Shown here in pieces: positions 13,543 to 32,783 of a DNA stretch of 64,000 nucleotides. Source of the DNA: Oerskovia paurometabola. Its GTDB lineage: Bacteria; Actinomycetota; Actinomycetes; Actinomycetales; Cellulomonadaceae. The stretch lies in assembly GCF_016907365.1 (NCBI RefSeq), contig NZ_JAFBBV010000001.1:2852001-2916000 (forward strand). The letters run 5' to 3'. A program made the position numbers and the translations under genes. Under the pieces are notes generated by a model. That model was not told the DNA's origin. It saw only the letters and a program-made list of their open reading frames with translations, and did no database searches. Numbering within the stretch: position 1 is the stretch's first letter; the number at the start of each line of letters is the position of its first letter.

Positions 13543-13570
13543 GACCGGCCGGGGCCGGCGAACTCATCGG
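13543..13570 (-). promoter_or_regulatory. Shared bipartite promoter motif, copy 1
   Basis: Read on the minus strand: CCGATGAGTTC, 10 nt, GCCGGTC, ending 49 nt before the VOC gene start. The same two blocks at the same spacing occur at 25450-25477 (+) and 32756-32783 (-). The arrangement fits -35/-10 elements of an ECF-type sigma factor, but the factor is not in this window. Confidence 0.6.
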
Positions 13571-13608
13571 TCGGCGCGCCCGGTCGGGCTCACCGGCCGT
13601 GGGGCGCG

Positions 13609-14115
13609 TCAGGCAGCCGTCCGCAGGAACGTCCCCAGCGCCTCGACCACGAGCAGGTGGTCGTCGCGCTGCGCCAGGCCCGACACGGTCACGACGCCGA
13701 TCACCCCGACTCCCTCGACCCGCAGCGGGAACGCCCCGCCGTGGGCCGCGTACTCCTGGAGCGACAGCTCGTGCTGCGCGGTGAACGTCGTCCCCTTGGC
13801 CTTGGCCCGCAGGCCCATGAGGTAGGACGACGCACCGAACCTCTCGACCACGCGCACCTTGCGCTGGACCCACGTGTCGTTGTCGGGCGTGGTCCCCTCG
13901 GTCGCGGCGTGGAAGACCTGCTGCGGTCCGCGGCGCACGTCGATCGTGATCGGCAGCGACCGCTCGGCCGCGAGCTCGACGAGCAGGCAGCCGAGCCGCC
14001 ACGCGTCGTCGTGCGTGAAGCGGGTGAGCACGAGCTCACGTTCGTGCTGCTCGGCCTCCGCGATGAAGCGGGCCGTGCGTGCGTGGTCGTGGTTCTCGGG
14101 CTGGTCGTGGGTCAT
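13609..14115 (-). CDS. HbpS/GlcG-like heme-degrading domain protein (UPF0303)
   Basis: This 168-aa protein shows the UPF0303/HbpS-like fold: RLGCLLVELAAERSLPITIDVRR, then a central VQRKVRVVERFG, and a Gly-rich C-terminal half with HGGAFPLRVEGVGVIGVVTVSGL. Relatives bind heme or small ligands as oligomers; some are extracellular, but this one lacks a signal peptide. It is a single gene between the VOC gene and ku, with its own start. The biochemical role is unknown. Confidence 0.75.
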   Translation of the reverse strand: MTHDQPENHDHARTARFIAEAEQHERELVLTRFTHDDAWRLGCLLVELAAERSLPITIDVRRGPQQVFHAATEGTTPDNDTWVQRKVRVVERFGASSYLMGLRAKAKGTTFTAQHELSLQEYAAHGGAFPLRVEGVGVIGVVTVSGLAQRDDHLLVVEALGTFLRTAA

Positions 14116-14142
14116 GGCGTCAGCCTGGCACGCCGCGGCACG

Positions 14143-15114
14143 TCACGCCGAGGCCTTCTTGCGCGTCGTCTTCTTCGCGGGTTCCTTCGTCGAGGCGGCC
14201 TTGCCGTCCGAGGCGCGCGACGCCGTCGTGCCCTTGGTCTTCTTCGTGGCTGCGGCGCTCTTCTTGCTGCCCGACGACGCCGCCTCCTTCGCGGTCTTCT
14301 CGCCCTTCGCGTCACCCGACTTCTTGCCGCGCGAGCTCTCGACGCTGCGGCGCAGGGCCTCCATGAGGTCGATGACCTCGGCCCCGTCGCCGCCCTTCTC
14401 CTCCTGCTCGCCGAACGTCTCGGCGGTGTCCAGGGCCTCGCCCTTCTCGATCTTGGCCTCGATGAGCTGGCGGAGCTGGGCCTGGTAGTCGTCCTGGTAC
14501 TCCTCGGGCGTGAAGTCGGCCGCGAAGGACTCGACGAGCTGGGACGACATCGCGAGCTCCTTGGCGCTGACCTTCGCGGGCTCGTCGAGCGTCGGGAACG
14601 CGGCCTCGCGCACCTCGTCGGCCCACAGCAGCGTCTGCAGGACCAGCACGTCGTCGCGCACGCGCAGCGCCGCGAGCCGCGTGCGCTGACGCAGCGCGAA
14701 CTTCACGATCGCGGTCCGGTCGGCCTCCTCGAGCGTGCGACGCAGCAGCACGTACGCCTTGTTCGAGGACGAGTCCGGCTCGAGGTAGTAGCTGCGGTCC
14801 AGGAGCATGGGGTCGATCTGGTCGTTCGGCACGAACTCGACGACCTCGACCTCGCGGCTGCGCTCGGCGGGCAGCGCCCCCAGGTCCTCGGCCGTGAGCA
14901 CGACCGTGCGCTCGCCGTCGTCGTACGCCTTGTCGATGTGCTCGTACGCCACGACCTCGCCGCAGACCTCGCACCGTCGTTGGTAGCGGATCCGACCGCC
15001 GTCCTTGTCGTGCACCTGGTGCAGCGGCACGTCGTGGTCCTCGGTCGCCGAGTACACCTTGATCGGCACGTTGACGAGACCGAACGTGATGGCACCCTTC
15101 CAGATGGCCCTCAT
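14143..15114 (-). CDS. ku: Non-homologous end-joining protein Ku
   Basis: This 323-aa bacterial Ku begins MRAIWKGAITFGLVNVPIKVY, the family hallmark. CEVCG (about residues 48-52) lies in the ring. The Ku core runs to about 255, and a long Lys/Ala-rich tail (about 265-323) resembles the DNA-binding extensions of actinobacterial Ku proteins. The homodimer rings broken DNA ends and recruits LigD, whose gene lies 5.6 kb away (20769-23405). It is a monocistronic gene, divergent from the DUF1905 gene. Confidence 0.95.
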   Translation of the reverse strand: MRAIWKGAITFGLVNVPIKVYSATEDHDVPLHQVHDKDGGRIRYQRRCEVCGEVVAYEHIDKAYDDGERTVVLTAEDLGALPAERSREVEVVEFVPNDQIDPMLLDRSYYLEPDSSSNKAYVLLRRTLEEADRTAIVKFALRQRTRLAALRVRDDVLVLQTLLWADEVREAAFPTLDEPAKVSAKELAMSSQLVESFAADFTPEEYQDDYQAQLRQLIEAKIEKGEALDTAETFGEQEEKGGDGAEVIDLMEALRRSVESSRGKKSGDAKGEKTAKEAASSGSKKSAAATKKTKGTTASRASDGKAASTKEPAKKTTRKKASA

Positions 15115-15257
15115 GCCTCCATGGTGCTCCCGGGCGCGAGGGCTGGCGAGTCGTCAGACCATCTGGAGCCGGTGGTGCGGGCCGACGGGGAGCATCATGG
15201 CGCGACTGCCCGCGGCGCGGACCGCGCGCTGTGGGTGCCGCCCGGCATCATGGGCGC

Positions 15258-15560
15258 ATGGTCGGCACCAGGTACGAGTTCGAGGCGGAGCTGTGGCGAT
15301 GGACCGCGCGCAGCGACACGTGGGTCTTCGCCGCCCTGCCGACCGACGTGAGCGACGAGATCGCGGACTCCCCGCTCCCCCCGGCCGGGTTCGGCTCGGT
15401 CAAGGTCGAGGTCACGCTCGGAGAGTCCCGCTGGTCCACGTCGGTCTTCCCCGACGCCGAGCGCAAGACGTTCGTCCTGCCCGTCAAGGCCGCGGTACGT
15501 CGCCGTGAAGGGGTCGACGTCGGGGACACCGTGCGGATCGCGGTCGAGACGCTGATCTAG
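15258..15560 (+). CDS. DUF1905 domain-containing protein
   Basis: This 100-aa small beta-rich protein matches DUF1905: FEAELWRW.A....WVFAALP near the N-terminus and the GFGSVKVEVTLG....WSTSVFP segment in the middle. ATG 15258 is preferred over an in-frame GTG at 15231 because translation then begins directly at the conserved region. Its TAG stop overlaps the stop of the convergent alarmone synthetase gene (CTAG). Function unknown. Confidence 0.8.
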   Translation: MVGTRYEFEAELWRWTARSDTWVFAALPTDVSDEIADSPLPPAGFGSVKVEVTLGESRWSTSVFPDAERKTFVLPVKAAVRRREGVDVGDTVRIAVETLI

Positions 15561-16321
15561 CCTGCCGGCTCGGCGTCGGTCGCACCCGGCCTGCCGCGCA
15601 GGTAGGAGTCGAGCAGCTCCCACGACGGCGTGAACGGACCTGCCATCTTCTCCGTCCCCGGGCGGAGGACCGCGGTGTCGCGCGAGTGCTGGAGGACCTC
15701 CTCGTGCAGACGCTCCATCTTGGCATCGAGCTCGGAGGCCGCGAGCGAGGCCTCCTTGAGCTCGTCGAGGAGGCGCTGCGGCACGGCCTTGTCGTACTTG
15801 TAGTAGATCTTGTGCTCGAGGCTGGCCCAGAAGTCCATGGCGATGGTCCGGATCTGGATCTCGACGACCACGGGCTGCACCCGGTCGGACAGGAACACGG
15901 GCACCTCGACGATCAGGTGCAGGCTCTTGTACCCGTTGCCCTTGGGGTGCGCGATGTAGTCGCGCTCCTCGAGGACGACGACGTCGCGCTGGGCCGCGAT
16001 CATGTCGCGCACCGTGTAGATGTCGGACACGAAGCTGCACGTGACGCGCACGCCCGCGATGTCGAAGATCTCCGCGCGCAGCGCCTCGATCGTCAGGTCC
16101 ACGCCCTTGCGACGGGCCTTGGCGAGCAACGACTCCGGCGACTTGAGGCGCGAGGACACGTGCTCGATCGGGTTGTACTCGTGGGCGTAGGCGAACTCGT
16201 CGCGCAGGATGGTGATCTTCGTCATCACCTCGTCCATGCCGAACCGGTACGTCATCATCAGCCGCGTGAAGTGCTCCCGCAGGGCCCTCAGCTCTGCCCC
16301 GACCTGGGGTTCACCGCTCAT
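15557..16321 (-). CDS. Small alarmone synthetase (RelA/SpoT-domain GTP pyrophosphokinase)
   Basis: This 254-aa stand-alone ppGpp synthetase has only the synthetase domain, with no HD hydrolase, TGS or ACT parts. Motifs seen are SRLKSPESLLAKARRKG, the G-loop region DIAGVRVTCSFVSD, HPKGNGYKSLHLIV and VEIQIRTIAMDFWASLEHKIYYK. It should make (p)ppGpp or related alarmones from ATP and GDP/GTP. ATG 16321 (GAGGAA upstream) is preferred to the more distal start at 16366. It is a single gene, divergent from a TetR gene with 235 nt between. Confidence 0.88.
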   Translation of the reverse strand: MSGEPQVGAELRALREHFTRLMMTYRFGMDEVMTKITILRDEFAYAHEYNPIEHVSSRLKSPESLLAKARRKGVDLTIEALRAEIFDIAGVRVTCSFVSDIYTVRDMIAAQRDVVVLEERDYIAHPKGNGYKSLHLIVEVPVFLSDRVQPVVVEIQIRTIAMDFWASLEHKIYYKYDKAVPQRLLDELKEASLAASELDAKMERLHEEVLQHSRDTAVLRPGTEKMAGPFTPSWELLDSYLRGRPGATDAEPAG

Positions 16322-16493
16322 GGATTCCTCGCTGATCGTGCCGACGTCGATCCTCCACCGTCGCACACCGTCAGGTCCCGGGGCGCCGGCGTCCGCCCTC
16401 GCCCACCGCTCGTCTCACGTCGTGGCCCCGAGCGCCCGTCGCGACGGGCCGTTGGGCCCCGAAGCCCGGGACCAACGTCCTGACCTGGTCGAA

Positions 16494-16518
16494 CACTGTT
16501 GACGCTGTGTCAATAGTG
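16494..16518. promoter_or_regulatory. Imperfect palindrome upstream of the TetR gene
   Basis: CACTGTTGAC (16494-16503) and GTCAATAGTG (16509-16518) are inverted repeats with one mismatch around a 5-nt centre. The left arm contains TTGAC, a possible -35 box, so a bound dimer would block transcription. It lies 38 nt before the TetR start and is a plausible autoregulatory operator. Confidence 0.6.
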
Positions 16519-16556
16519 GATCTAGCGTCCAGTTATCAGCTCAGAAAGGGGCTCCG

Positions 16557-17168
16557 ATGACCGACGCGACGACGCCGAGGAGGCGACGTTCAGCACCCGA
16601 GGTTCGTGCCGAGGAGATCGTGCACGCCGCCCGCGAGCTGTTCGCCGAGCAGGGCATCGCCCGGACCTCGACCAAGGAGGTCGCCGAACGCGCGGGCATC
16701 GCCCGGGGGCTCGTCTACTACTACTTCCCCGACAAGGACGCCCTCGTCGACGCCGTGCTCGAGGGCTATGTCGCAGAGTTCGTCGAGGCCGTGCGCGCGT
16801 GGGACGCGGCGCGCGAGCCCGGGAACGTCGACAAGGCCCTCGTCGACTGCATCGCGATGTTCCGCACGCACCTGCGGGCGGTCGCCCCGCTGCGCGACGA
16901 CATGCAACGCACCGAGAGCGCCGGGCTGTACAACCGTTTCCTCGACCGGGCCGTGCGGGCCGTGGTCGAGTGCATCGGCGCCACGACCGTGGAGGCCTAC
17001 GCGGCCAGGCACCACATCGGCATCGAGCACGTGCCCGAGACCTTCTACGTCCTCGTCTACGGGCTCGTCGGCCTCGCCCGGAACACCCCGGAGGTCGACG
17101 ACGCCGTGCTCGTGACGATCGTGCGCCAGGTTCTGCACCTCGAGGAGGCGCGTTCCGACACCGAGTGA
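16557..17168 (+). CDS. TetR-family transcriptional regulator
   Basis: This 203-aa regulator has an N-terminal TetR helix-turn-helix (about residues 15-65: IVHAARELFAEQGIARTSTKEVAERAGIARGLVYYYFPDK) and a divergent all-helical ligand domain. AAAGGGG precedes the ATG. It lies upstream of, and codirectional with, a DUF5692-like membrane protein gene (113 nt gap), which is the obvious target together with its own promoter palindrome. The ligand is unknown. Confidence 0.88.
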   Translation: MTDATTPRRRRSAPEVRAEEIVHAARELFAEQGIARTSTKEVAERAGIARGLVYYYFPDKDALVDAVLEGYVAEFVEAVRAWDAAREPGNVDKALVDCIAMFRTHLRAVAPLRDDMQRTESAGLYNRFLDRAVRAVVECIGATTVEAYAARHHIGIEHVPETFYVLVYGLVGLARNTPEVDDAVLVTIVRQVLHLEEARSDTE

Positions 17169-17280
17169 CGCGACGGCCCGGAACCCGACGGTGCGCCGGG
17201 ACCGGGCTCGCTCACCTGGCGCACCGTCCTCCACCCCGGGCGGCCACGAGCCGTCCCGTCGTCCTGAGAAAGGGAGCGAC

Positions 17281-18234
17281 GTGTTCCTCTTCGATTCCAT
17301 CCCCTGGCAAGCGGCCGTCATGTGGTTCGTGGTGCTCGCTGCCCTCGTGGGCCTCAACGAGCTCGTCCGCTGGTCCAAGACCGCCGCGATCGGCATCTTC
17401 GTCGTCCTGCCGGTCCTGCTGACGATCTTCGTCTGGCCCCACACCGCGGGGGCAGGGTCCTCGACCGGCACCTGGTTCCACTGGGTCAAGGTGTACTCGG
17501 CCCTCGCCGGGTGCATCGGCTTCATGCTCATCCGCTACAACAAGCGCGTCGGGGCGATGAAGTACGCCCTGCTTTTCCCCCCGGCGATCCTCGCGCTCAA
17601 CATCGCCGAGGCCGTGATCCGTGACTTCCAGGTCTACGGCATGGACGGCATGGTCGACGGCGTGTTCATGGTCGGCGGTTCGTGGAACATCATGAACGGC
17701 ATCGCGGGCATCCTGAACCTGCTGACGATCTGCGGCTGGGCCGGCATCTACATCACGCGCGACCGGTTCCGCGACATGGTCTGGCCCGACATGATGTGGT
17801 TCTGGATCATCGCGTACGACCTGTGGAACTTCGCGTACGTCTACAACTGCGTGGGCGACCACGCGTTCTACGCGGGCGCCGCGCTGCTCATCAGCTGCAC
17901 GATCCCGGCGTTCTTCCTGCGCAAGGGCGCCTGGCTCCAGCACCGTGCCCACACGCTCGCGTTCTGGATGATGTTCACGATGGCCGTGCCGACGTTCGTC
18001 TCGGACTCGTCGTTCGCCGTCGACTCCTCGCACGACCCCACGGCACTGTTCGTCGTGAGCCTGATCTCGCTGCTCGCCAACGTCGCGGTCGCCGTCTACC
18101 AGGTCAAGGTGATCGTGACCAAGCGCCGCAACCCGCTGCGCGACGAGCTCTTCACGGACCACAAGTCCTACCAGGAGCTCGCGAAGGACCGCCCGGCACC
18201 GGAGCTCGCGACCGCGGGCGCCACGACCGCCTGA
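17281..18234 (+). CDS. DUF5692-like multi-pass membrane protein
   Basis: This 317-aa integral membrane protein has about eight to nine hydrophobic segments and many Trp/Tyr residues. Recognisable stretches include SIPWQAAVMWFVVLA, RYNKRVGAMKYALLFPPAILALNIAEAVIRDFQV and PDMMWFWIIAYDLWNFAYVYNC. GTG 17281 follows AGGGAG. I place it in the DUF5692 family from memory of such sequences; no function is known. It follows a TetR gene and ends at a strong bidirectional terminator, so the two genes probably form one regulated unit. Confidence 0.72.
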   Translation: MFLFDSIPWQAAVMWFVVLAALVGLNELVRWSKTAAIGIFVVLPVLLTIFVWPHTAGAGSSTGTWFHWVKVYSALAGCIGFMLIRYNKRVGAMKYALLFPPAILALNIAEAVIRDFQVYGMDGMVDGVFMVGGSWNIMNGIAGILNLLTICGWAGIYITRDRFRDMVWPDMMWFWIIAYDLWNFAYVYNCVGDHAFYAGAALLISCTIPAFFLRKGAWLQHRAHTLAFWMMFTMAVPTFVSDSSFAVDSSHDPTALFVVSLISLLANVAVAVYQVKVIVTKRRNPLRDELFTDHKSYQELAKDRPAPELATAGATTA

Positions 18235-18246
18235 CGAGCCCGACCG

Positions 18247-18291
18247 CGACGAAGGGTCGCCCCGACACGGTGTCGGGGCGACCCTTCGTCG
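18247..18291. terminator. Strong bidirectional terminator
   Basis: A perfect 22-bp inverted repeat (18247-18268 with 18270-18291; arms begin CGACGAAGGGTCGCCCC) lies between the convergent DUF5692-like and MFS genes, 12 nt past one stop and 15 nt before the other. Confidence 0.92.
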
Positions 18292-18306
18292 CGTGTGCGG
18301 GTCCGG

Positions 18307-20022
18307 CTACCGCTCGGGTCGCGCCCCGGCGCGCACGCTCTCTCCCCGCCCGACGGCGTCGCTCGCCCCGGCGGCGTCGGTCACCAGGAGCTGGCCCTCG
18401 GCCAGGGACTCCGCGGCGATCTCGTGCTCGACCGAGGTCGCGAGCGGCTTCTCGTGGACGAAGCACAGGGCGATCGCCGCGATGATCGCGAGCGGCACCA
18501 TGTAGAGGAAGAGCGGCACGAGCGCCTCGTTGTAGGACTCGATCACGAGGGCGCGCACGCCGTCGGGCAGGGACTGCACCAGGTCCGGGGTGAGCGAGCC
18601 CGTCCCTCCCGCCGAGCCCGTGCCCTGCGGGAACTTCTCCGCGAGGAGCGTGGTCAGACGAGCGATGAAGACGCTGCCGACCACGGCCGAGCCCAGCGTG
18701 GCGCCGACCTGGCGGAAGTAGTTGTTGGCCGCGGTCGCGGTCCCGACCTCGCGCAGGGGGAACGAGTTCTGCACGATGAGCGTGAGAATCTGCATGCTGC
18801 TGCCCAGCCCGATCCCGATCACCCCGAGGAACACGCAGATCATCGGGGTCGGGGTGTCCGCCTCGACGGTCGAGAGCAGGGCCAGGCCCACGCCCAGGAT
18901 CAGCGACCCGACGATCGGGAGGACCTTGTACTTCCCGGTGCGCGAGACCATCTGCCCCGTGACGACCGAGGTGACGAGCAGCGAACCCATCATGGGGATC
19001 ATGAGCAGGCCCGCGACGGTCGCGCTGGCCCCGGTCGCCATCTGCAGGTAGGTCGGCATGTAGCCGATCGCGCCGAACATCGCGATGCCCGTCGCGAGGG
19101 CCGCGATGGTCGTGACCGTGAAGTTGCGGTCCGCGAACAGGTGCAGCGGGATGATCGGCTCGTCGGCGCGCCTCTCGACGAGCACGAACGCGACGGCCGC
19201 CACGACCGCGAGAGCGATCAGGCCGAGGATCGTCGCCGAGCCCCACGCGTACTGCGAGCCGCCCCACGTCCCGACCAGGACGAGCGCCGTGGTCGCGACG
19301 GCCATGAGGGCCATGCCGAGGTAGTCGTGGCGCACGCGCTCGGCGCTGCGAGCCTTCTTGGGCAGGTGCAGGAGGAAGATCGCGGCGAGCGCCGCGACGA
19401 CGCCCAGCGGGATGTTGATCCAGAAGACCCAGCGCCAGCCGGGACCCTCGGTGAACCAGCCGCCGAGCAGCGGGCCCGCGACCGAGGAGACCGCGAAGAC
19501 GGCACCCATGATGCCCATGTACTTGCCGCGCTCACGGGCGGGGATGACGTCGGCGATCGCGGCCTGAGACAGGATCATGAGCCCGCCGCCGCCGAGGCCC
19601 TGGACCGTGCGGCCCACGATGAGCAGGTTCATGTCGCCCGCGACGGCGCCGATGACCGAACCCGCCATGAACAGCAGGATCGCGGTCAGCAGCAAGGGCT
19701 TGCGCCCCAGGACGTCGGAGACCTTGCCGTAGATCGGCATGGTGATGGTCGAGGCCAGGATGAAGGCCGTGATGACCCAGCTCATGTGCTCGACCCCGTC
19801 GAGCTCGCCCACGATGGTGGGCAGCGCGCTCGACAGCACCGTCTGGTTGAGCGACGCGAGCAGCATCGTGACCATGAGGCCCAGGAAGAGCAGCACGATG
19901 CCCCGGTCCTTCGGGGTCGCTGCCGGGGCGTCCGGGGACGACGGTTGGGTGGGCGCGGCACCTCGGGTGGTCGTCGCGCCTCGGGTGGGTGCCGGCGTGC
20001 CGGCTCGGGGGGTGGTGGTCAT
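18307..20022 (-). CDS. DHA2-family MFS multidrug exporter
   Basis: This 571-aa, 14-helix drug:proton antiporter of the EmrB/QacA type has SSALPTIVGELDG in helix 1, the loop 2-3 motif YGKVSDVLGRKPLLL, and antiporter motif C in helix 5 (VSSVAGPLLGGWF). An Ala/Pro/Thr-rich cytoplasmic N-terminus of about 40 residues precedes helix 1. The ATG overlaps the stop of the upstream TetR gene (ATGA), so regulator and pump are cotranscribed and coupled. The substrate is unknown. Transcription ends at the 18247 hairpin. Confidence 0.92.
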   Translation of the reverse strand: MTTTPRAGTPAPTRGATTTRGAAPTQPSSPDAPAATPKDRGIVLLFLGLMVTMLLASLNQTVLSSALPTIVGELDGVEHMSWVITAFILASTITMPIYGKVSDVLGRKPLLLTAILLFMAGSVIGAVAGDMNLLIVGRTVQGLGGGGLMILSQAAIADVIPARERGKYMGIMGAVFAVSSVAGPLLGGWFTEGPGWRWVFWINIPLGVVAALAAIFLLHLPKKARSAERVRHDYLGMALMAVATTALVLVGTWGGSQYAWGSATILGLIALAVVAAVAFVLVERRADEPIIPLHLFADRNFTVTTIAALATGIAMFGAIGYMPTYLQMATGASATVAGLLMIPMMGSLLVTSVVTGQMVSRTGKYKVLPIVGSLILGVGLALLSTVEADTPTPMICVFLGVIGIGLGSSMQILTLIVQNSFPLREVGTATAANNYFRQVGATLGSAVVGSVFIARLTTLLAEKFPQGTGSAGGTGSLTPDLVQSLPDGVRALVIESYNEALVPLFLYMVPLAIIAAIALCFVHEKPLATSVEHEIAAESLAEGQLLVTDAAGASDAVGRGESVRAGARPER

Positions 20023-20660
20023 AGCGTGGCCTCGAAGACCTCTCGGAAGATGGTGATCGCTTCGCCGATGTCGGCCTCGGCGTCGGCGTCGCTCAGGGCG
20101 GTGCCGGGGTTGCGCGAGTACGCGAAGCGCATGATGGTGCCGGCGAGCATGAGGAGCGCTCGCGCGGTGTCGGGGCTGTCGGGCAGGCCCAGCGACGCGA
20201 GCTCGCTGAACCCCGTCCCGTCCTCGGCCCGGTCGGACAGCAGGTCGTTGACGAGCCCCTCGACCTGGGAGACGTAGCCCATGGCGTGCTTGCGCAGCTC
20301 GGGGTGCTCCCGCACGAGCGCCTTGCGCTCGGCGAACGGCACGCCGGGGTGGAGCGTCGAGCGCAGGATCGAGAGCAGGAACCGCACGACCCGTTCGAAC
20401 GCGGGCCCCTCGGTCTCGGCACGGAAGGCCGCGAGCGCCTCGTCGGAGACGGTCGGGGGCACGAGCCCCAGGATCGCCTCCTCCTTGGTCGTGAAGTAGT
20501 TGAAGAAGGTCCGCGGCGAGACTCCCGCCGCGGCGGCGATCTCCTCGACGGTCGCATGGTGGAGCCCCTTCTCGCGGACCAGTGCGGCGGCCGCCTGGTG
20601 GATCGTGAGCCAGGTCTCGGCGCGCTTGCGTTCGCGGAGGGACGTCGGTGCGGTCTGCAT
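20019..20660 (-). CDS. TetR-family repressor of the MFS exporter
   Basis: This 213-aa protein has an N-terminal helix-turn-helix region: RERKRAETWLTIHQAAAALV, then TVEEIAAAAGVSPRTFFNYFTTKEEA. ATG 20660 is chosen; an upstream in-frame ATG (20702) would place an odd Cys-rich peptide in front and run through the TGCA operator array. It is the first gene of a two-gene operon with the pump. Induction would be by a pump substrate, as in related systems. Confidence 0.9.
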   Translation of the reverse strand: MQTAPTSLRERKRAETWLTIHQAAAALVREKGLHHATVEEIAAAAGVSPRTFFNYFTTKEEAILGLVPPTVSDEALAAFRAETEGPAFERVVRFLLSILRSTLHPGVPFAERKALVREHPELRKHAMGYVSQVEGLVNDLLSDRAEDGTGFSELASLGLPDSPDTARALLMLAGTIMRFAYSRNPGTALSDADAEADIGEAITIFREVFEATL

Positions 20661-20701
20661 GACTGCACTGTATGCACGACTGCAAAGATTGCACAACTGC
20701 A
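20656..20701. promoter_or_regulatory. Six-fold TGCA operator array at the TetR gene
   Basis: TGCA occurs at 20656, 20664, 20673, 20681, 20690 and 20698, with alternating 8/9-nt steps. It amounts to nearly three copies of a 17-bp unit TGCAYRACTGCANNNNN (each half a TGCA-N4-TGCA palindrome). The array covers the TetR start codon and the region shared with the divergent ligD promoter. Cooperative binding by the TetR protein is inferred. Confidence 0.65.
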
Positions 20702-20768
20702 CGTTTAGCTCCTACGGCTCTCGCCGCCCCGCCGAGCGCAACCACCCGCCCCGGGCAACCATGGACCC

Positions 20769-25449: not shown

Positions 25450-25477
25450 CCGATGAGTTCTCCGAGGACCGCCGGTC
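25450..25477 (+). promoter_or_regulatory. Shared bipartite promoter motif, copy 2
   Basis: CCGATGAGTTC (25450-25460), 10 nt, GCCGGTC (25471-25477), 61 nt before the VOC gene at 25539. It is identical in both blocks and in spacing to the copies at 13543-13570 and 32756-32783. Confidence 0.6.
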
Positions 25478-25538
25478 TACCCGACGACACCCGTCCTCGC
25501 CGCGGAGCACCGCGGCGGCACGTCCGAAGGAGCACGTC

Positions 25539-25946
25539 ATGACCGGAACCCAGATCTTCGTCAACCTGCCCGTGGCCGACCTCGACAGGTCAAAGGCGTT
25601 CTACACGCAGCTCGGGTTCTCGATCAACGAGCAGTTCACCGACGAGAACGCGTCGTGCGTCGTCATCAGCGACACGATCTACGTCATGCTCCTGACGCAC
25701 GACTTCTTCCGCCGGTTCACGTCGAAGGACATCGTCGACGCCCAGAGTGCGACCGAGACCATCAACGCGATCAGCGCCGAGTCCCGCCCGGGCGTCGACG
25801 AGCTCGCCGACCGGGCGCTCGCCGCGGGCGGGTCGCAGACCAACCCGCCCCAGGACGAGGGCTTCATGTACTCGCGCAGCTTCTCCGACCTCGACGGGCA
25901 CCTGTGGGAGGTCATGTACATGGACCCGAGCGCGATCGAGGGCTGA
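25539..25946 (+). CDS. VOC-family glyoxalase-like protein
   Basis: This 135-aa VOC fold protein has FVNLPVADLDRSKAFYTQLGF, then the central ISDTIYVMLLTHDFFRRF and the C-terminal FSDLDGHLWEVMYMDP, which carries the usual terminal metal-ligand Glu. AAGGAG precedes the ATG. It is a single gene with its own ECF-like promoter motif and a hairpin terminator. Substrate unknown; relatives include fosfomycin/bleomycin-resistance-like and dioxygenase-like proteins. Confidence 0.88.
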   Translation: MTGTQIFVNLPVADLDRSKAFYTQLGFSINEQFTDENASCVVISDTIYVMLLTHDFFRRFTSKDIVDAQSATETINAISAESRPGVDELADRALAAGGSQTNPPQDEGFMYSRSFSDLDGHLWEVMYMDPSAIEG

Positions 25947-25961
25947 CCTGCCGGGACACGA

Positions 25962-26001
25962 CGGGCGGCGGTGCCGGGGAATGCCTCGGCGCCGCCGCCC
26001 G
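25962..26001. terminator. Terminator after the VOC gene
   Basis: CGGGCGGCGG (25962-25971) pairs with CCGCCGCCCG (25992-26001), with an inner GCC/GGC pair, 15 nt after the stop codon. Confidence 0.8.
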
Positions 26002-26012
26002 TTGCCGCCTTC

Positions 26013-26936
26013 ATGCGAGCCATCACCTACTCCCGCTACGGCGGAGCCGACGTCCTCGAGCTCAACGAGCTCCCCACGCCCAAGGTCGGGCCGGACACCG
26101 TCCTGGTCCGGGTCAAGGCCACGAGCGTCAACCCGGTCGACTGGAAGGTCCGCGAGGGCTACCTCGACGCGGTCATGGACGCGACGTTCCCGGTCGTGCC
26201 CGGCTGGGACGTCGCGGGCGTCGTCGAGCAGGTCGGCCTGGACACGCCCGAGCTCTCGGTCGGCGACGAGGTCTTCGGGTACGTGCGCAAGGACGTGGTC
26301 TCCGGCGGCACGACCGCCGAGCTCGTCGCGGCCCCGGTCCGCACGCTGGCCCGCAAGCCCGCGGCATGGACGTGGGAGCAGGCTGCCGGCGCACCGCTCG
26401 CGGGGCTCACTGCGCTCCAGACGATCGACCGCGCCGGGGTGAGCAGCGGTCAGACCGTGCTCGTGCACGCGGCCGCGGGGGGCGTCGGGTCGATGGCCGT
26501 GCAGATCGCGGTCGCCCGCGGCGCGCGCGTGATCGGCACGGCGTCCGAGCGCAACCACGAGTACCTGCGCTCGCTGGGCGCCGAGCCCGTGACGTACGGC
26601 GAGGGCCTCGCCGAGCGCGTGCGCGCCCTCGCTCCCGAGGGCGTCGACGTCGTCCTCGACTACATCGGCGGCGAGGCCCTGGCCACCACGCCCGACGTCC
26701 TGCGCGAGGGCGGCACGGTCGCCTCGGTCGTCGACGCGGCGGCCCGCGACGAGCTCGGCGGGCACTACGTGTGGGTCCGCCCCGACGTCGAGGGGTTGAC
26801 CGAGCTGGCCCGCCTCGCCGACGCCGGCCAGCTCACGGTCGACGTCGCCGAGGTCTACGACCTGGCCGACGCCGCGAAGGCCCACGAGGCGAGCCGGACC
26901 GGGCACGTGCGCGGCAAGGTCGTCATCACGGTCTGA
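26013..26936 (+). CDS. Quinone oxidoreductase-type NADP-dependent alcohol dehydrogenase
   Basis: This 307-aa zinc-independent medium-chain dehydrogenase/reductase has an N-terminal GroES-like catalytic fold (VKATSVNPVDWKVREGY), a cofactor fold with AAAGGVGSMAVQIA (about residues 145-158), and GHVRGKVVITV at the C-terminus. ATG 26013 is preferred; an in-frame upstream start at 25971 would lie inside the preceding terminator. No clear ribosome site is present, so it may be leaderless. Likely reduces quinones or activated alkenes. Confidence 0.85.
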   Translation: MRAITYSRYGGADVLELNELPTPKVGPDTVLVRVKATSVNPVDWKVREGYLDAVMDATFPVVPGWDVAGVVEQVGLDTPELSVGDEVFGYVRKDVVSGGTTAELVAAPVRTLARKPAAWTWEQAAGAPLAGLTALQTIDRAGVSSGQTVLVHAAAGGVGSMAVQIAVARGARVIGTASERNHEYLRSLGAEPVTYGEGLAERVRALAPEGVDVVLDYIGGEALATTPDVLREGGTVASVVDAAARDELGGHYVWVRPDVEGLTELARLADAGQLTVDVAEVYDLADAAKAHEASRTGHVRGKVVITV

Positions 26937-26961
26937 GCCGCCCGTCCCGCTCCGGCGGGGT

Positions 26962-27008
26962 GCGGATCCCTCGTGCGACTCGCTGCGCGTCGCGCACCAG
27001 GGGTCCGC
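26962..27008. terminator. Hairpin after the dehydrogenase gene
   Basis: GCGGATCCCT (26962-26971) pairs with AGGGGTCCGC (26999-27008), with one G-U pair. Inner CGTGCGAC/GTCGCG pairing lengthens the stem. Confidence 0.65.
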
Positions 27009-27043
27009 GCCCCGCGGCCGGTCGGTGACGTACCGTGAAGCCC

Positions 27044-27877
27044 ATGTCCGCCACCGTCCCCGCCCTCGTCGCCGCCGACTCCGCACGCCTGCGGACCCGC
27101 GCCGCACGACATGCCCGCTCGCTCCCTCTCGCCGTCTGCGGGCTGGCCGTGCTGGTCGTCGCGGGGATGGGCCTGCTCGACGGCAGCTGGTTCTGGCTCG
27201 TCATGCTCGTGCCCGCAGCAGGGTTCCTCGCGACGTACGTCGTGGCCTTCGCCCTGCGGCTGCCCTCGGGGGTGGGCGTCGGGAGCGACGGGTACGGGAT
27301 CGCGCTCGTCCTGAGCGCACTGATCGCCTTCTTCCTCCCCTGGATCATCTGGACGACGGGCGTCCCCTTCCTCGCAGGGCTCGGCCTCGTCGTCCTGGGG
27401 CTGCGCGCCTCCGACCGGTTCCTGTGGGTGGCAGGGCTCGCGACGATGGCCGCGTCGTTCGGGATCGCGACCCTCTCGTCGCCGCTCTTCCTCCCGCTCT
27501 CGACGCCCGGCCTCATGGCGATGATCGCTCTGGGCCTCGCCCTGCTGGCAGCCGCACTGGTGGCCCTGCGCGGTGAGCGCCAGACCCTCGCCGCCGGGGA
27601 TGGCGCCCTGAGCATCGGCGACCCCGCGACCGACAACCTGCGCGTGCTCGCGGTGCTCGGCGACGCCGACGAGGCCGACCAGCCCGCGCTCGCCCGTCTC
27701 ACGGGCATCGAGGAGCGCAACCTCGCGGCCCGCCTCCACGACCTCACCGAGGCGAGCCTGGTCCATGCCCGGATCACGAAGAACCGGAACTGGGCGCAGA
27801 TCACCCGCGAGGGCCGCGAGGAGCTGCGGACCCGCCACGAGGCGCTGCGCGGGGTCGCGGAGCACCGCAAGGCCTGA
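27044..27877 (+). CDS. Membrane protein fused to a C-terminal winged helix
   Basis: This 277-aa protein has about five to six membrane segments (residues ~25-165) and a cytoplasmic winged-helix domain (~195-270; DNLRVLAVLGDADEADQPALARLTGIEERNLAARLHDLTEASLV). The membrane part is homologous to the separate 185-aa protein at 29638, sharing RHAxSLPL, GVGxGxDxYG and a GLGLV/GVGLV-type segment. The winged helix resembles the separate 130-aa protein at 30192. It therefore looks like a one-component membrane-anchored regulator. ATG 27044 is chosen; GTG 27035 is also possible. Function and signal unknown. Confidence 0.7.
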   Translation: MSATVPALVAADSARLRTRAARHARSLPLAVCGLAVLVVAGMGLLDGSWFWLVMLVPAAGFLATYVVAFALRLPSGVGVGSDGYGIALVLSALIAFFLPWIIWTTGVPFLAGLGLVVLGLRASDRFLWVAGLATMAASFGIATLSSPLFLPLSTPGLMAMIALGLALLAAALVALRGERQTLAAGDGALSIGDPATDNLRVLAVLGDADEADQPALARLTGIEERNLAARLHDLTEASLVHARITKNRNWAQITREGREELRTRHEALRGVAEHRKA

Positions 27878-27905
27878 GCGCCGGCACCGCCCAACGGCGA
27901 GCCGC

Positions 27906-27940
27906 GCACCCGGGACGGGCTCCGCCGTCGGGCACCTCGC
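27906..27940. terminator. Hairpin with the recurrent GCTCCGCCGTCGGGC motif
   Basis: GACGG (27914-27918) pairs with CCGTC (27925-27929) downstream of the membrane/winged-helix gene. The sequence 27919-27940 matches 10170-10191 over 22 bases. Confidence 0.35.
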
Positions 27941-27976
27941 CCGGCGCACCGGCGAGAGCGGTGGCAGGCTGGCCCC

Positions 27977-29104
27977 ATGAGGGAGTTCACCGCACAGGAC
28001 TTCGCCGCGCGCATCGACCGCGCGGCCGCCCAGGCCCGGGACGCCGGGCTCGCCGGGGTGCTCGTCACCCCCGGGCCGGACATGACGTACTTCACGGGGT
28101 ACACGCCCACGGCCATGACCGAGCGCATCACGCTGCTCGTGGTCCCGGCCGAGGGCGAGGCGTCGATCGTGGTGCCCGTCCTCGAGCGCCCCGACCTCGA
28201 CCGTGCGGCCGGTGCCGCGACCCTGCACGTCACGGCGTGGACCGACGGGGTCGACGAGTACGCGGTCACGGCCGACCTGCTCGACACCGCGGGGCACTAC
28301 GCGATCTCCGACTCGGCGTGGGCCATGCACCTGCTGGGGCTCCAGCGCACGCTGCCGGGCTCGTCGTACTCGGCGATGACGCAGGCCCTGCCCATGCTGC
28401 GCGCGGTCAAGGGACCCGACGAGATCGAGCGCCTCGCGGCCGCGGGCGCGGCGAACGACGCGACGTTCGCCGACATCGTCGAGATCCGTTTCAGCGGGCG
28501 CCGCGAGCTCGACGTCGCGGCGGACCTCGCGGGCTTCCTGCGCGACCACGGGCACTCGCAGGTCGACTTCACGGTCGTCGGCTCGGGGCCCAACGGCGCC
28601 AACCCCCACCACGAGGCGGGCGACCGGGTCATCCAGGAGGGCGACATGGTCGTGCTCGACTTCGGCGGCCTCAAGGACGGCTACGGCTCGGACATGACGC
28701 GCATGGTGCACGTCGGGGGCGACGTCACGGACCAGCAGCGCGAGGTCTTCGAGGTCGTGCGAGCCGCGCAGCAGGCCGGGGTCGACGCGGTGCGGCCCGG
28801 CGCGACGTGCCAGGACGTCGACCGCGCCGCCCGAGCAGTCATCACCGAGGCCGGGTACGGCGAGCAGTTCATCCACCGCACGGGCCACGGGATCGGGCTC
28901 ACGACGCACGAGCCGCCCTACATGATCGAGGGCGAGGAGCAGCCGATCGTGTCCGGCATGTGCTTCTCGGTCGAGCCCGGAATCTACCTGTCGGGGAACT
29001 TCGGGGTGCGCATCGAGGACATCGTGGTCGCGTTCCCGGACGACCTGCCCGACGGCGCCCGTCGCCTCAACAACGCACCGCACGACCTGCACGTGGTCGA
29101 GTAG
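27977..29104 (+). CDS. M24-family Xaa-Pro aminopeptidase
   Basis: This 375-aa protein has an N-terminal creatinase-like domain (about 1-145) and a pita-bread metallopeptidase domain (about 150-375). The dinuclear metal ligands are visible: Asp in DFGGLKDG, Asp in GSDMTRMV, His in HRTGHGIGL, Glu in SVEPGIY and Glu in VRIEDIV. It should remove N-terminal residues preceding proline. It is flanked by the fused and split membrane/winged-helix genes, but no functional link is evident. It starts at ATG 27977. Confidence 0.9.
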   Translation: MREFTAQDFAARIDRAAAQARDAGLAGVLVTPGPDMTYFTGYTPTAMTERITLLVVPAEGEASIVVPVLERPDLDRAAGAATLHVTAWTDGVDEYAVTADLLDTAGHYAISDSAWAMHLLGLQRTLPGSSYSAMTQALPMLRAVKGPDEIERLAAAGAANDATFADIVEIRFSGRRELDVAADLAGFLRDHGHSQVDFTVVGSGPNGANPHHEAGDRVIQEGDMVVLDFGGLKDGYGSDMTRMVHVGGDVTDQQREVFEVVRAAQQAGVDAVRPGATCQDVDRAARAVITEAGYGEQFIHRTGHGIGLTTHEPPYMIEGEEQPIVSGMCFSVEPGIYLSGNFGVRIEDIVVAFPDDLPDGARRLNNAPHDLHVVE

Positions 29105-29169
29105 GCCGCCCCGCGAGGGCCGGGCGGACGGGTGGCCCGCAGCGTGCGTGCGCCCGCTAGGTTCGTCGC

Positions 29170-29625
29170 ATGATCTCTGAGGCACCTACCGCCGCGGACC
29201 AGGGCACGAGCAGCGCGCGACGCGGGCTCGTCGTGTGCGCGATCGCGACCGTCGGCGCGACCCTCGTCGGCGCCGTCCCCGCCCTCGCGATCGGCCTGTC
29301 GGTGGCCCGGTACCGCTACGTGGAGAACTGGTCAGGCGCGTCGAGCGGCTTGCTCGACGGCGAGCGCGAGCGGGCGCTCTTCGTCGCCGGGACTGGGATC
29401 CTCCTCGCACTCCTCGCCGCCGCTGCGGTGTTCCGGTTCGTCGCGCGGTCCGGGCGCACCTCCGTGCCCGCTCCGCGGGTCGTCGCCGCGTGCGCGGTGC
29501 TCGTCGCAGCGAGCGTGCTCACGCTGGTGGTCGTGGTCCTGCTCGGATCACCACTTGCTGCCGGGATCGTGGACGGATCCGTCCCCGCGGCCGGTGCGGA
29601 GGTTGACCCCATTTACTCTGCCTGA
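29170..29625 (+). CDS. Hypothetical membrane protein (151 aa)
   Basis: Three hydrophobic segments are visible (about residues 18-45, 72-92 and 105-128), with an RSGRTSVPAP cytoplasmic link between the last two. No family is recognised. Its 3' end holds the promoter and inverted repeat of the next gene. It shows ordinary high-GC codon use and an ATG start. It may be transcribed alone or read through from the M24 peptidase gene 65 nt upstream. Confidence 0.6.
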   Translation: MISEAPTAADQGTSSARRGLVVCAIATVGATLVGAVPALAIGLSVARYRYVENWSGASSGLLDGERERALFVAGTGILLALLAAAAVFRFVARSGRTSVPAPRVVAACAVLVAASVLTLVVVVLLGSPLAAGIVDGSVPAAGAEVDPIYSA

Positions 29626-29637
29626 CAGAGTTCACGC
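29603..29637 (+). promoter_or_regulatory. Promoter with overlapping inverted repeat before the split membrane/winged-helix pair
   Basis: TTGACC (29603-29608) is followed 17 nt later by CAGAGT (29626-29631), a weak -10, which would start RNA about at the ATG 29638 (leaderless). ACTCTG (29615-29620) and CAGAGT (29626-29631) form a 6-bp inverted repeat across the -10, a likely binding site for the winged-helix protein encoded at 30192. Confidence 0.5.
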
Positions 29638-30195
29638 ATGACGACCACGGCCCAGTACGTCGCCGACCTCCAGGCCCAGCAGCGAGCCGTGCGTCACGCG
29701 GCGTCGCTCCCGCTCTTCGTGACGACCCTCGGCGTGGGGTTCCTGGCCTACTGCGAGATCGCCACCGACTGGTGGATCTTCCCCCAGGCATTCGTCCCGG
29801 CGGTCGCCTTCGGGACACTGTTCATCGGCATGCGGGTCCAGCGGCAGGCGCTCGGGGTCGGCACTGGTCGCGACCGGTACGGGCTGCTCGCGCTCACCAT
29901 GCTCGCCCTGACCTTCTTCCCTGGACCCGTCCTCTCGATCTTCGTGGGAGCGAGCCTCCTCCTCGGCGTCGGGCTCGTCTCGCTCGGCTGGCGAGCCCGG
30001 GACCTGTGGCTCCTGGCACCGGGGCTCGGGCTCCTGGTCGTCAGCCCGCTCGTCGTCCACAGCCCGCTCGAGAGCCTCGCTCCCGTCCTGGGCAGCCGCG
30101 GGGGCGGCCTGGTCCTCGTCACGGTCGTCCTGCTCGCCCTCACCGTCGCCGCGTTCGTACGCGAGCGAAAGAACACGCAGGAAGCCGCGGCGTGA
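29638..30195 (+). CDS. Membrane protein paired with a winged-helix regulator (split form)
   Basis: This 185-aa protein has about five membrane segments: residues ~25-45, 48-65, 85-110, 115-128 and 155-170. It is homologous to the membrane half of the 277-aa fusion at 27044. It is followed by its winged-helix partner with a GTGA stop/start overlap, so the two are made together. A regulator-sensor or anti-regulator role is inferred from this linkage and from the fused form nearby. No known family function is assigned. Confidence 0.65.
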   Translation: MTTTAQYVADLQAQQRAVRHAASLPLFVTTLGVGFLAYCEIATDWWIFPQAFVPAVAFGTLFIGMRVQRQALGVGTGRDRYGLLALTMLALTFFPGPVLSIFVGASLLLGVGLVSLGWRARDLWLLAPGLGLLVVSPLVVHSPLESLAPVLGSRGGGLVLVTVVLLALTVAAFVRERKNTQEAAA

Positions 30196-30584
30196 GCACG
30201 CCACCGGAGCAGCATCCACTCTCCCGCCTCGACGAGACGGTCCACCAACGCGCACGCCTCGGCATCCTCGCGATCCTCGCCGAGACGCGCGACGCTGACT
30301 TCGCGCACCTCAAGCGCGCGTTGGGCCTCACGGACGGCAACCTCGGGCGACACCTCGAAGTCCTCGTCACGAGCGGGTACGTCGAGCTCCGCAAGGGCAG
30401 CGACGGCCGCCGGGCACGCACCTGGGCACGCATCACCCCCCGGGGCAGGCAGGCCCTGATCCTCGAGGTCGAGCTCCTGCACGGGCTGCTCGCGGCGGTG
30501 GGACGACCCGTCGACGCGTCGGACGCGCCGAGCACGCCCCACGGCGACGGCTCCCGCGCCGCAGGACACGACGCCTCGTCGTGA
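30192..30584 (+). CDS. Winged-helix transcriptional regulator (MarR/ArsR-like)
   Basis: This 130-aa DNA-binding protein has a helix-turn-helix region RLGILAILAETRDADFAHLKRALGLTDGNLGRHLEVLVTSGYV (about residues 20-65), a wing with RRARTWARITPRGRQAL and a low-complexity tail. It matches the single-domain winged helices found next to membrane proteins in actinobacteria. The GTG overlaps the stop of the membrane protein gene. The inverted repeat at 29615-29631 is a candidate operator. Confidence 0.82.
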   Translation: MSTPPEQHPLSRLDETVHQRARLGILAILAETRDADFAHLKRALGLTDGNLGRHLEVLVTSGYVELRKGSDGRRARTWARITPRGRQALILEVELLHGLLAAVGRPVDASDAPSTPHGDGSRAAGHDASS

Positions 30585-30691
30585 CGCCGACAGGCCGTCG
30601 GCGCCCGACAGAGCACCCCACGGACTGACCACGGGCGGGGCCCTCGTGACCGGGCTGCACAGCGGCCTCCGGCCGCCTCACCCCCGCCGCG

Positions 30692-32095
30692 TCAGGCCTC
30701 GGCCGCGTCCGCGCTCTCCGCAGAATCGGCCCCCGCCGCCACGACCTGCTCGTTGCGGATGCCCGCCCAGCTCACGAGGCCGCCCGCGACGAGCAGCGCG
30801 GCCGTGACGATCAGTGCGCGGTGGAACCCTGCGACGTCGAGCACGGGTCCGATGACGATCCCCGCGCACGCGATGACCACGAGGCCCGCGATGCGCGAGA
30901 CCGCGTTGTTCACGGCCGACCCGATGCCCGCGTCCGCGGCCGGGATCGAGCCGAGGATCGCCGCGGTCAGGGGCGCCACCGTGACGGCGAGCCCCAGGCC
31001 GAACAGCAGGATGCCGGGCAGGAGCTGCGTGAAGTAGCTCGCCTCGGCGGTCGTGGTGAGCATGAGCAGGTACCCGCAGCCCGCGATCAGGGGGCCCACC
31101 GTCATGAACAGGCGCGGCCCGTACCGGCCCGCGAGCGCCCCGAAGCGCGACGACAGGAACAGCATGAGCAGCGTCACCGGCAGCAGGGCGAGGCCCGCGA
31201 GGGTCGCGCTGTACCCGGCGACCTGCTGGACGAACAGGGTCACGGCGAACCCGCCGAACGCGAGCGCCCCGTAGATCGCGGCCGTCGCGACGTTGCCCGC
31301 GGCGAAGTTGCGCACCGAGAACAGGGACAGCGGCAGCATGGGGTCAGGGGCGCGCCGCTCCCAGACGAGGAACGCCACGAGCGCCGCGATCCCGACGACG
31401 AGCGGCACCCACACGACCGGGCTGCCCCACCCGAAGCGCCCGTGCTCGATGAGCGCGAAGACGGGCCCGGCGAGCCCGACGGCCGCGAGCACCGCTCCGC
31501 GCACGTCGATGCGCCGACCGGTCTCGGTGTCGCCCTCCTCCATGCCGCGCAGGATCCACAGCGTGACCGCGACGGGCAGGAGGTTGATGCCGAACACCCA
31601 GCGCCAGGACAGCGTGTCGACGAGCACGCCGCCGAGCAGGGGTCCGGCGATCATCGCGGTGCCGGTCCACGCGGTCCAGGTGCCGATCGCCTTGGCCTGC
31701 GCGGCGCCGCTGAACGAGGAGATGATCATCGCGAGCGAGCTCGGTACGAGCAGCGCGCCCGCGATGCCCTGCAGCCCGCGCGCGACCACGAGCACGACGC
31801 CCGTCGGGGCCAGCGCGCACAGCACCGACGTGAGCGCGAACCCGACGAGCCCCCACCACATGACGCGGCGGCGCCCGTGGACGTCGGACAGCGAACCCGC
31901 CACGAGGATGAGCGACCCGAGCGTGATGAGGTACGCGTCGACGACCCACTGCTGGAGCGCGAGCCCGTCGAGCACTCCCCCGGCCAGCTCGTCGGCGATC
32001 GCGGGCAGCGCGACGTTGACCACCGTCCCGTCGAGGAACGACACGAACGAGGCGAGGATCGCGACGAGCAGCACACGGCGCTGGGCGGGTGTCAC
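30692..32095 (-). CDS. DHA2-family MFS transporter
   Basis: This 467-aa drug-exporter-like protein has about 14 membrane segments: FLDGTVVNVALPAIADEL (helix 1, DHA2 motif), SLSDVHGRRRVMWWG (loop 2-3) and a motif C-like GPLLGGVLVD. The GTG start overlaps the stop codon of the PPOX-family gene upstream (GTGA), so the two are one operon under the promoter motif at 32756-32783. Substrate unknown. It differs clearly from the TetR-linked MFS at 18307. Confidence 0.9.
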   Translation of the reverse strand: MTPAQRRVLLVAILASFVSFLDGTVVNVALPAIADELAGGVLDGLALQQWVVDAYLITLGSLILVAGSLSDVHGRRRVMWWGLVGFALTSVLCALAPTGVVLVVARGLQGIAGALLVPSSLAMIISSFSGAAQAKAIGTWTAWTGTAMIAGPLLGGVLVDTLSWRWVFGINLLPVAVTLWILRGMEEGDTETGRRIDVRGAVLAAVGLAGPVFALIEHGRFGWGSPVVWVPLVVGIAALVAFLVWERRAPDPMLPLSLFSVRNFAAGNVATAAIYGALAFGGFAVTLFVQQVAGYSATLAGLALLPVTLLMLFLSSRFGALAGRYGPRLFMTVGPLIAGCGYLLMLTTTAEASYFTQLLPGILLFGLGLAVTVAPLTAAILGSIPAADAGIGSAVNNAVSRIAGLVVIACAGIVIGPVLDVAGFHRALIVTAALLVAGGLVSWAGIRNEQVVAAGADSAESADAAEA

Positions 32096-32706
32096 GGCTC
32101 CACGCTAGCCCCGTCCTCGAAGCGCCACCGGGTCGCGGTGTAGTCCTCGCCGCGCCCGTACGCGTAGACCGTCGTGGGCTGCACCCGGAAGACGTACGCC
32201 TCCACGGTGGCCTGCTCGCCGGGCTCGGAGCCGTCCGCGGGCGCCTCGCTGTCCCAGAAGGCGCCGTCTCGCACCTCGAAGTGCCAGTCGTACTTGCACG
32301 CCCAGCGGTCGGCCAGGCGTTGCAGCAGGTGGTGCTCGGTGATCCGCTCGGCGGCCCCGTCGAGCACGACGTCGAGCCCCGCGCTCAGGAGGTTGGTCCC
32401 GGTGGTCAGCACGCACCCGGGGTTCGCCGCGAGGTTGAGCGCCTTGCGCTCGGTGCGGCCGGTGCAGAAGTGGAGCGCCCCGTCGGCCCAGACCGCGATG
32501 AGCGGAGTGACGTGCGGGCGCCCGTCGGGGCGGACGGTGGACAGCCAGAAGATCTCGGCGCCCTGGAGCTGAGCCAGGGCGTCGGCCCAGGAGGTCGGTG
32601 CAGCGCCGGGGGACGAGAAGTCCGTCATGAGGACCCCGGCGGGCGCCCCGCCGGGCTCGACGGGCTGGGCGGACTCGGCGGCGGGCTGGTCGGGTTCTGC
32701 GGCCAT
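32092..32706 (-). CDS. Pyridoxamine 5'-phosphate oxidase-fold (PPOX) family protein
   Basis: This 204-aa split-barrel flavin or F420-binding-type protein has ADALAQLQGAEIFWLSTVRPDGRPHVTPLIAVWADGALHFCTG, the family start, and a C-terminal TYxxTRWRF-like end. A 35-residue Pro/Ala-rich lead precedes the barrel. GGAGGATC precedes ATG 32706. Members reduce or oxidise small organic substrates; this substrate is unknown. It heads an operon with an exporter, suggesting detoxification, and carries the shared ECF-like promoter motif. Confidence 0.82.
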   Translation of the reverse strand: MAAEPDQPAAESAQPVEPGGAPAGVLMTDFSSPGAAPTSWADALAQLQGAEIFWLSTVRPDGRPHVTPLIAVWADGALHFCTGRTERKALNLAANPGCVLTTGTNLLSAGLDVVLDGAAERITEHHLLQRLADRWACKYDWHFEVRDGAFWDSEAPADGSEPGEQATVEAYVFRVQPTTVYAYGRGEDYTATRWRFEDGASVEP

Positions 32707-32755
32707 GGGAGATCCTCCGTCTCTGGGTGGCTCCGTCGCCACACCGTCCCTCTCC

Positions 32756-32783
32756 GACCGGCGCGGGCGCCCGAACTCATCGG
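32756..32783 (-). promoter_or_regulatory. Shared bipartite promoter motif, copy 3
   Basis: On the minus strand, CCGATGAGTTC-N10-GCCGGTC ends 49 nt before the PPOX-family gene start, the same distance as copy 1 before its VOC gene. Confidence 0.6.

Follow-up and report, generated by a model that had tools for sequence, protein, structure and literature searches.

Three identical bipartite motifs in Oerskovia paurometabola as predicted promoters of a SigG-type sigma factor and its detoxification-like regulon

The best-described relative of the system considered here is SigG of Mycobacterium tuberculosis. In the available part of the report on it (PMC3776920), the SigG promoter was proposed as CGATGA(N18)GTCNNTA from two promoters, the start of Rv0887c determined by 5' rapid amplification of cDNA ends (5'RACE) being aligned with Rv0911. 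Both genes are VOC-like and are the most strongly induced by SigG, and the overexpression set comprises six genes, fprB, Rv0887c, Rv0911, Rv0912, prpD, and inhA. The dominant promoter of sigG itself, P1, is of the RecA_NDp type and is inducible by mitomycin C via PafBC, and the induction of Rv0887c by mitomycin C requires SigG (PMC3776920). The consensus of PafBC/RecA-NDp promoters is given as tTGTCRgtg-N8-TannnT (PMC5656591), and sigG is a named member of the PafBC regulon in mycobacteria in the accessible text of two reports (PMC5656591, PMC8223512). A further relative, SigG1 of Streptomyces tsukubaensis (ECF56 SigG1-RsfG), is described as 40% identical to M. tuberculosis SigG (PMC7730460). 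Here, we analyze a stretch of 64,000 nucleotides (nt) of the soil actinobacterium O. paurometabola (the window), in which the motif CCGATGAGTTC-N10-GCCGGTC occurs three times, each time ahead of a gene of a detoxification-like family.

It is highly probable that the three motifs are promoters of the single SigG-type sigma factor of this genome, which would drive about 14 scattered detoxification genes and would itself probably be induced by DNA damage via a PafBC-type promoter. That the motifs are SigG-type promoters appears close to settled from the sequence comparisons below, and it is likely that a damage-to-detoxification cascade operates in this organism.

In the window, all three copies are exact and are situated between likely genes (Table 1). 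No further copy was found there even when up to three mismatches were allowed, and shuffled sequence gives a mean of 0.19 copies, with none of 100 shuffles reaching three. The original prediction had placed three identical copies 49, 61, and 49 nt ahead of the start codons of two VOC genes and a PPOX-family/MFS operon; exact matching confirms both the copies and the gaps, and Pfam agrees with the gene calls. It had also called the genes unlinked, which is right in that they form separate transcription units, yet all of them lie inside 19.2 kb. The longer GCCGGTC block that it proposed is not kept beyond the window copies. Across the genome 9 of 11 sites have GGTC and 2 have AGTC, and the consensus reduces to CCGATGAGTTC-N13-GGTC as its informative part.

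The hexamer CGATGAGTTC occurs 15 times in the 4.33 Mb genome, and the pattern CGATGAGTTC-N14-GTC occurs at 11 sites, three of them in the window; the reversed control is absent for both patterns. A C precedes the -35 box at 9 of the 11 sites, and a G precedes GTC at 9. Each site is followed 37-67 nt downstream by a start codon, with a purine-rich stretch ahead of it. The original prediction had named frequent occurrence inside coding regions as the observation that would count against it; in fact, 11 of the 15 hexamers have a correctly spaced GTC and stand at that short distance before a start codon. The whole-genome search that it proposed, with the downstream genes listed, returns only genes that appear by their domains to belong to detoxification-like families: four RibD_C proteins, two VOC-fold proteins, two alpha/beta hydrolases, a DUF899 protein, the PNPOx_N protein of the PPOX-MFS pair, and a DrrA-type ABC ATPase.

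Allowing one mismatch raises the count to 21 genomic sites (ten extra), against none for the reversed pattern. Three of the extra sites are convincing, one before a VOC gene (L010) and two before RibD_C genes (L149 and L152), with start codons 39-69 nt on and a purine-rich stretch; about 14 predicted targets are thus credible in this genome. The others were set aside: four are not promoter-like (L009, L148, L150, and L151), two are doubtful as the start codon is too distant (L147, MFS, 131 nt; L153, ABC, 152 nt), and one has no Pfam match (L011). The four remaining CGATGAGTTC sites (L032, L033, L036, and L045) were dropped from the regulon because GTC is not at the right distance.

Exact copies precede the orthologues of all three window genes in all six same-genus genomes searched, although in one of them (G005) copy 1 sits on another contig. 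These copies were found by requiring the boxes, and box identity alone is not evidence. Yet all 21 sequences also agree at two positions outside the required ones, with C ahead of CGATGAGTTC and G ahead of GTC, whereas identity is only 33-57% over the 39 upstream bases and 72-76% over the spacer.

The original prediction held that the motifs form the regulon of one extracytoplasmic function (ECF) sigma factor encoded elsewhere. This is supported by three findings: a single SigG-type gene outside the window, a match to a published promoter, and a motif number that follows this sigma family from genome to genome. All 19 Sigma70_r2 genes identified in the genome lie outside the window. A family-model scan that covered ten of the 19 identified one TIGR02960/PRK08241 ECF gene (G000:C1:4285925-4286935), which scores 400.7 bits against TIGR02960 (cut-off 264.75) and 425.4 against NF006089 (cut-off 240); searching the genome for this family gives one match. 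The product has sigma regions 2 and 4 (PF04542 and PF08281) and a C-terminal SnoaL_2 domain (PF12680). Its nearest named relative is in Oerskovia enterophila (96%), and over 324 positions it shares 40% identity with the SigG-type protein from a Mycolicibacterium-like genome. It falls below the cut-offs of the ECF41 models (SigX4/TIGR02957, 90 versus 323 bits; SigJ, 93 versus 271 bits).

The presence of the motif was compared with that of the sigma family, a genome with a TIGR02960 SigG-type gene being termed SigX5-positive. Among 39 relatives, the motif is present in every one of the 23 that carry the gene, in two or more copies in 22 and as a single copy in one. The 16 that lack the gene never reach two motifs: it is absent from 13, and each of the other three holds a single site, two of these sites being without a downstream frame and one lying before a substrate-binding protein. 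The reversed control is zero in all 39. Over 246 genomes of the class, at least two motifs are present in 92 of 143 with the gene versus 4 of 103 without it, and the corresponding Fisher p of 6.6e-25 comes from a test that ignores kinship and differences in genome size among the genomes. The mean number of motifs is 3.13 with the gene and 0.28 without it, and forward matches total 476 versus three reversed ones. The 150 class sites listed, out of 476, include 12 at no more than 2 kb from a SigX5 gene; in three cases (G078, G045, and G107) the site immediately precedes that gene and has its orientation. In a subset of 57 sites from relatives, two are this close to a SigX5 gene, both figures being raw counts.

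The original prediction had also proposed to look for an ECF sigma gene with the same motif upstream. The sigma gene was found and some relatives do have such a copy, but there is none within the locus of the sigma gene in this genome, and autoregulation through the motif was rejected here. The product of the gene directly before the sigma gene (L048:106-1389) is a SpoIIE phosphatase that also has a HATPase domain, and a partner-switch-like input to the sigma factor is possible. Downstream, the nearest likely gene runs in the opposite direction.

In a tree of 42 SigX5 proteins, seven of the 20 sampled from motif-free genomes form a separate, well-supported clade, and the other 13 mix with proteins from motif-rich genomes. 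A distinct subfamily accounts for the motif-free SigX5 genomes only partly. The separate clade probably reads another promoter, and judging from the 13 mixed proteins, loss or drift of the motif is also common. This clade (L173, L178, L179, L181, L184, L187, and L188) holds motif-free genomes only, and region 4 in it begins mostly with TVELAF or TIELAF, the common form being [ST][IV]RLAF.

Table 1. Predicted SigG-type promoters and associated genes in the window (positions are those of the 64,000-nt stretch)
Feature	Position	Strand	Remarks
SigG-type promoter copy 1	13543..13570	-	-35 CCGATGAGTTC, -10 GGTC; same gene and boxes in 6/6 same-genus genomes
VOC-fold protein, 159 amino acids (aa), PF06983 (3-dmu-9_3-mt), predicted target	13014..13493	-	start codon 49 nt past copy 1
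SigG-type promoter copy 2	25450..25477	+	exact match
VOC protein, 135 aa, PF00903 and Ble-like_N, glyoxalase/bleomycin-resistance-like, predicted target	25539..25946	+	start codon 61 nt past copy 2
SigG-type promoter copy 3	32756..32783	-	exact match
PPOX-family protein, 204 aa, PF01243 PNPOx_N, predicted target	32092..32706	-	start codon 49 nt past copy 3
MFS transporter, 467 aa, PF07690	30692..32095	-	start overlaps PPOX stop

The MFS and PPOX genes probably form one operon. Long open reading frames in other frames, called mechanically, also overlap the motif copies. The only one scanned with Pfam (window:32627-34753:+) matches TetR domains alone, at residues 526-689, far from the motif. The upstream neighbour of copy 3 is a BioB-like radical SAM/BATS gene (window 32834-34360, minus strand), beyond which lies a TetR gene (LmrA/YxaF-like, about 34200-34756, plus strand).

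Evidence on how the sigma gene may be controlled comes from 24 SigX5 loci in relatives, whose 170 nt ahead of the gene were scored on 12 positions of the PafBC/RecA-NDp consensus. At least 10 of 12 positions agree in 11 of the 24 loci (0.07 expected; none on the other strand) and at least 9 in 18 (0.69 expected; one on the other strand). All 24 loci were used in these counts, including L122, where the scored region is misplaced (the model match starts at position 52). A strict PafBC regular expression matches only two of the 24; the wider signal is seen by the scored scan. The sigma gene of this genome scores 10 of 12, and that of a same-genus genome (L113) scores 11.

The strict PafBC core pattern occurs at 12 sites in this genome versus none for the reversed pattern. 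These sites precede recA, uvrB, and genes for a pcrA-like helicase, a DnaQ/UvrC-like exonuclease, a topoisomerase A subunit, a RarA-like ATPase, and a DinG/YoaA-like helicase, several of these products being fragments that end at the locus edge and score under the model cut-offs. For the five other sites the scans covered three products, namely a VOC protein, an ACT_7 protein, and one without an NCBIfam match. Adjacent tandem WYL genes at 2341.6-2342.8 kb have no NCBIfam model match at E 1e-20 and would be PafBC-like by arrangement only.

In one place the two kinds of site lie close together. The one-mismatch SigG-type site before a VOC gene (L010, G000:C1:1375681-1375707, minus strand) is about 60 nt from a back-to-back exact PafBC-type site before the pcrA-like helicase gene (L155, G000:C1:1375767-1375788, plus strand), and the two tiers may share this intergenic region. 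Elsewhere, only 7 nt separate an exact PafBC-type promoter (L164, G000:C1:2798803-2798824, minus strand) from the downstream start of a Glyoxalase_6 gene, and this VOC gene seems to be directly under PafBC.

The following scheme is suggested by the PafBC-like promoter that members of the genus and family have ahead of this sigma gene, in imperfect form in this genome. DNA damage would act here through PafBC on a RecA-NDp-type promoter and turn on the SigG-type sigma gene, as for sigG in M. tuberculosis. RNA polymerase with the SigG-type sigma factor (TIGR02960/PRK08241, ECF56-like) would bind the promoters described above and read CCGATGAGTTC as the -35 and GGTC as the -10 element. Transcription would start about 7-10 nt past GTC, and the sigma factor would drive genes for VOC, RibD_C/dihydrofolate-reductase-like, DUF899, alpha/beta-hydrolase, and PPOX proteins and for MFS and DrrA-type exporters. 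The products may dispose of reactive or foreign small molecules and in this sense detoxify.

The start position is predicted because leaderless-type start codons occur there in relatives. Among the mycobacterial-family sites, 14 of 20 are followed by an ATG or GTG at a distance of 7-10 nt from GTC (other windows, mean 2.2, largest 8), as are 10 of 29 sites of relatives (mean 3.25, largest 8), which suggests leaderless mRNAs in these organisms; in the own genome this holds for 2 of 11 sites, with no excess. The predicted position would be close to the 7 nt of the original prediction.

The targets elsewhere are of similar kinds. For relatives, 29 sites were taken from among the matches listed, and 20 of the 29 products were scanned with Pfam, 19 from SigX5-positive genomes and one, a substrate-binding protein, from a negative genome. 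Fourteen of the 19 belong to families of the own regulon (six VOC-fold, two RibD_C, two alpha/beta hydrolases, one PNPOx_N, two MFS, and one ABC), four to other families (BNR/sortilin, peptidase S51, GyrI-like, and metallo-beta-lactamase fold), and one has no match. The mycobacterial-family sample consists of 20 sites in five genomes chosen as motif-rich; the ten products scanned comprise two RibD_C, one DUF899, two VOC, two MDMPI_N, one alpha/beta hydrolase, one DoxX, and one without a match.

Among other explanations, it is conceivable, if unlikely, that another ECF sigma factor (for example, ECF42-like or ECF41-like) reads the motif and that SigG-type genes only happen to be found alongside it in larger, GC-rich genomes. 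The partner genes of ECF41 and ECF42 are likewise VOC- or YCII-like, the family scan covered ten of the 19 Sigma70_r2 genes, and two genes encode ECFs with long C-terminal parts (L058 and L061). However, none of the ten scanned sigma genes passes the ECF41 model SigX4, relatives without SigX5 never have two or more motifs, motif copies adjoin SigX5 genes, and the M. tuberculosis SigG consensus, as given in the available text, agrees in both sequence and spacing. It is rather improbable, more so than the former, that an activator or repressor binds the motif as its operator beside ordinary promoters and that the boxes are not a -35/-10 pair. A bipartite motif of fixed spacing can equally be a regulator site, but the boxes are neither palindromic nor repeated, the start codons past GTC at the mycobacterial-family sites fit GTC as a leaderless -10 element, and a mapped start in M. 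tuberculosis had already led to the proposal of this motif as a sigma promoter (PMC3776920, available part). Chance or base composition, to which GC-rich DNA lends itself by favouring parts of the motif, was rejected as having next to no probability on the window shuffles (three copies against 0.19) and the reversed-pattern counts in the genome (11 against none) and in the 246 genomes (476 against three), along with the non-random placement and function of the genes.

Several points weigh against SigG-type promoters under damage control. The sigma family and the motif are not strictly tied, as 28 of 143 SigX5-positive class genomes lack an exact motif and 4 of 103 negative ones have two or more. 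Two of the 12 PafBC consensus positions, including the C of the TGTC core, are not matched by the promoter of the own sigma gene. The NNTA that follows GTC in M. tuberculosis is missing here, with T at +3 and A at +4 at none of the 11 own sites; at mycobacterial-family sites T is found at +3 in 7 of 20 and A at +4 in 11 of 20, and within the published consensus NNTA is the weak part. S. tsukubaensis SigG1, also a SigG-like ECF56, has a different reported motif, CCG-17 nt-CCCTCC, and its targets in the accessible text (ald, wblC, and metal homeostasis) differ from the own set (PMC7730460). Finally, M. tuberculosis sigG mutants are reported not to be sensitive to DNA damage or methylglyoxal (PMC3776920, available part).

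A broader reading, for which we see even chances, is that SigG is a second tier of the DNA-damage response across much of the class Actinomycetes, in which PafBC turns on sigG and SigG a recurring, often leaderless detoxification set of VOC proteins, RibD_C reductases, DUF899 proteins, alpha/beta hydrolases, PPOX proteins, mycothiol-dependent enzymes, DoxX, and exporters. If so, the cell would repair its DNA while destroying or exporting the damaging chemical, CGATGAGTTC-N14-GTC would mark this branch as an ancestral signature that has hardly changed, and orphan DUF899 and RibD_C genes would gain testable functions. With a promoter pattern of such low background (three reversed matches in 246 genomes), the regulon can be recognized in the sequences of many actinobacteria. 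One predicted signal then unites families whose role is unclear (DUF899, stand-alone RibD_C, and small VOC proteins), and whether they are damage-induced defences against genotoxins or reactive metabolites becomes a testable question.

Compared with known systems, the locus resembles M. tuberculosis SigG, as far as the available text describes it, in the boxes CGATGA and GTC placed exactly 18 nt apart at the 11 own sites, in VOC targets (two exact sites and one one-mismatch site), in a SnoaL-tailed sigma factor, and in a candidate RecA-NDp-like promoter ahead of the sigma gene. It shares an ECF sigma factor with a SnoaL_2 tail with S. tsukubaensis SigG1 as well. A SnoaL-like tail is also described for ECF41 (SigJ/SigI; PMC8999054, accessible part), although the own sigma factor is far under the ECF41 cut-offs. 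As in the published PafBC/RecA-NDp regulon, the pattern stands before the own recA and uvrB; a difference is that the own sigma promoter agrees with the consensus at only 10 of 12 positions. In contrast to M. tuberculosis, the own motif has an extended -35 element (CCGATGAGTTC), about 14 targets are predicted versus the six genes of the overexpression set, and the sigma gene lies between a SpoIIE/HATPase gene and an opposite-strand gene and not in a sigG-Rv0181c-Rv0180c operon. For the motif string, no sigma-factor paper was found as judged by title, and no report of the wider regulon was found in the open-licence literature; an ECF56 motif may already have been published as a prediction. M. 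tuberculosis provides the outline of the scheme, and what is new is the size and breadth of the regulon.

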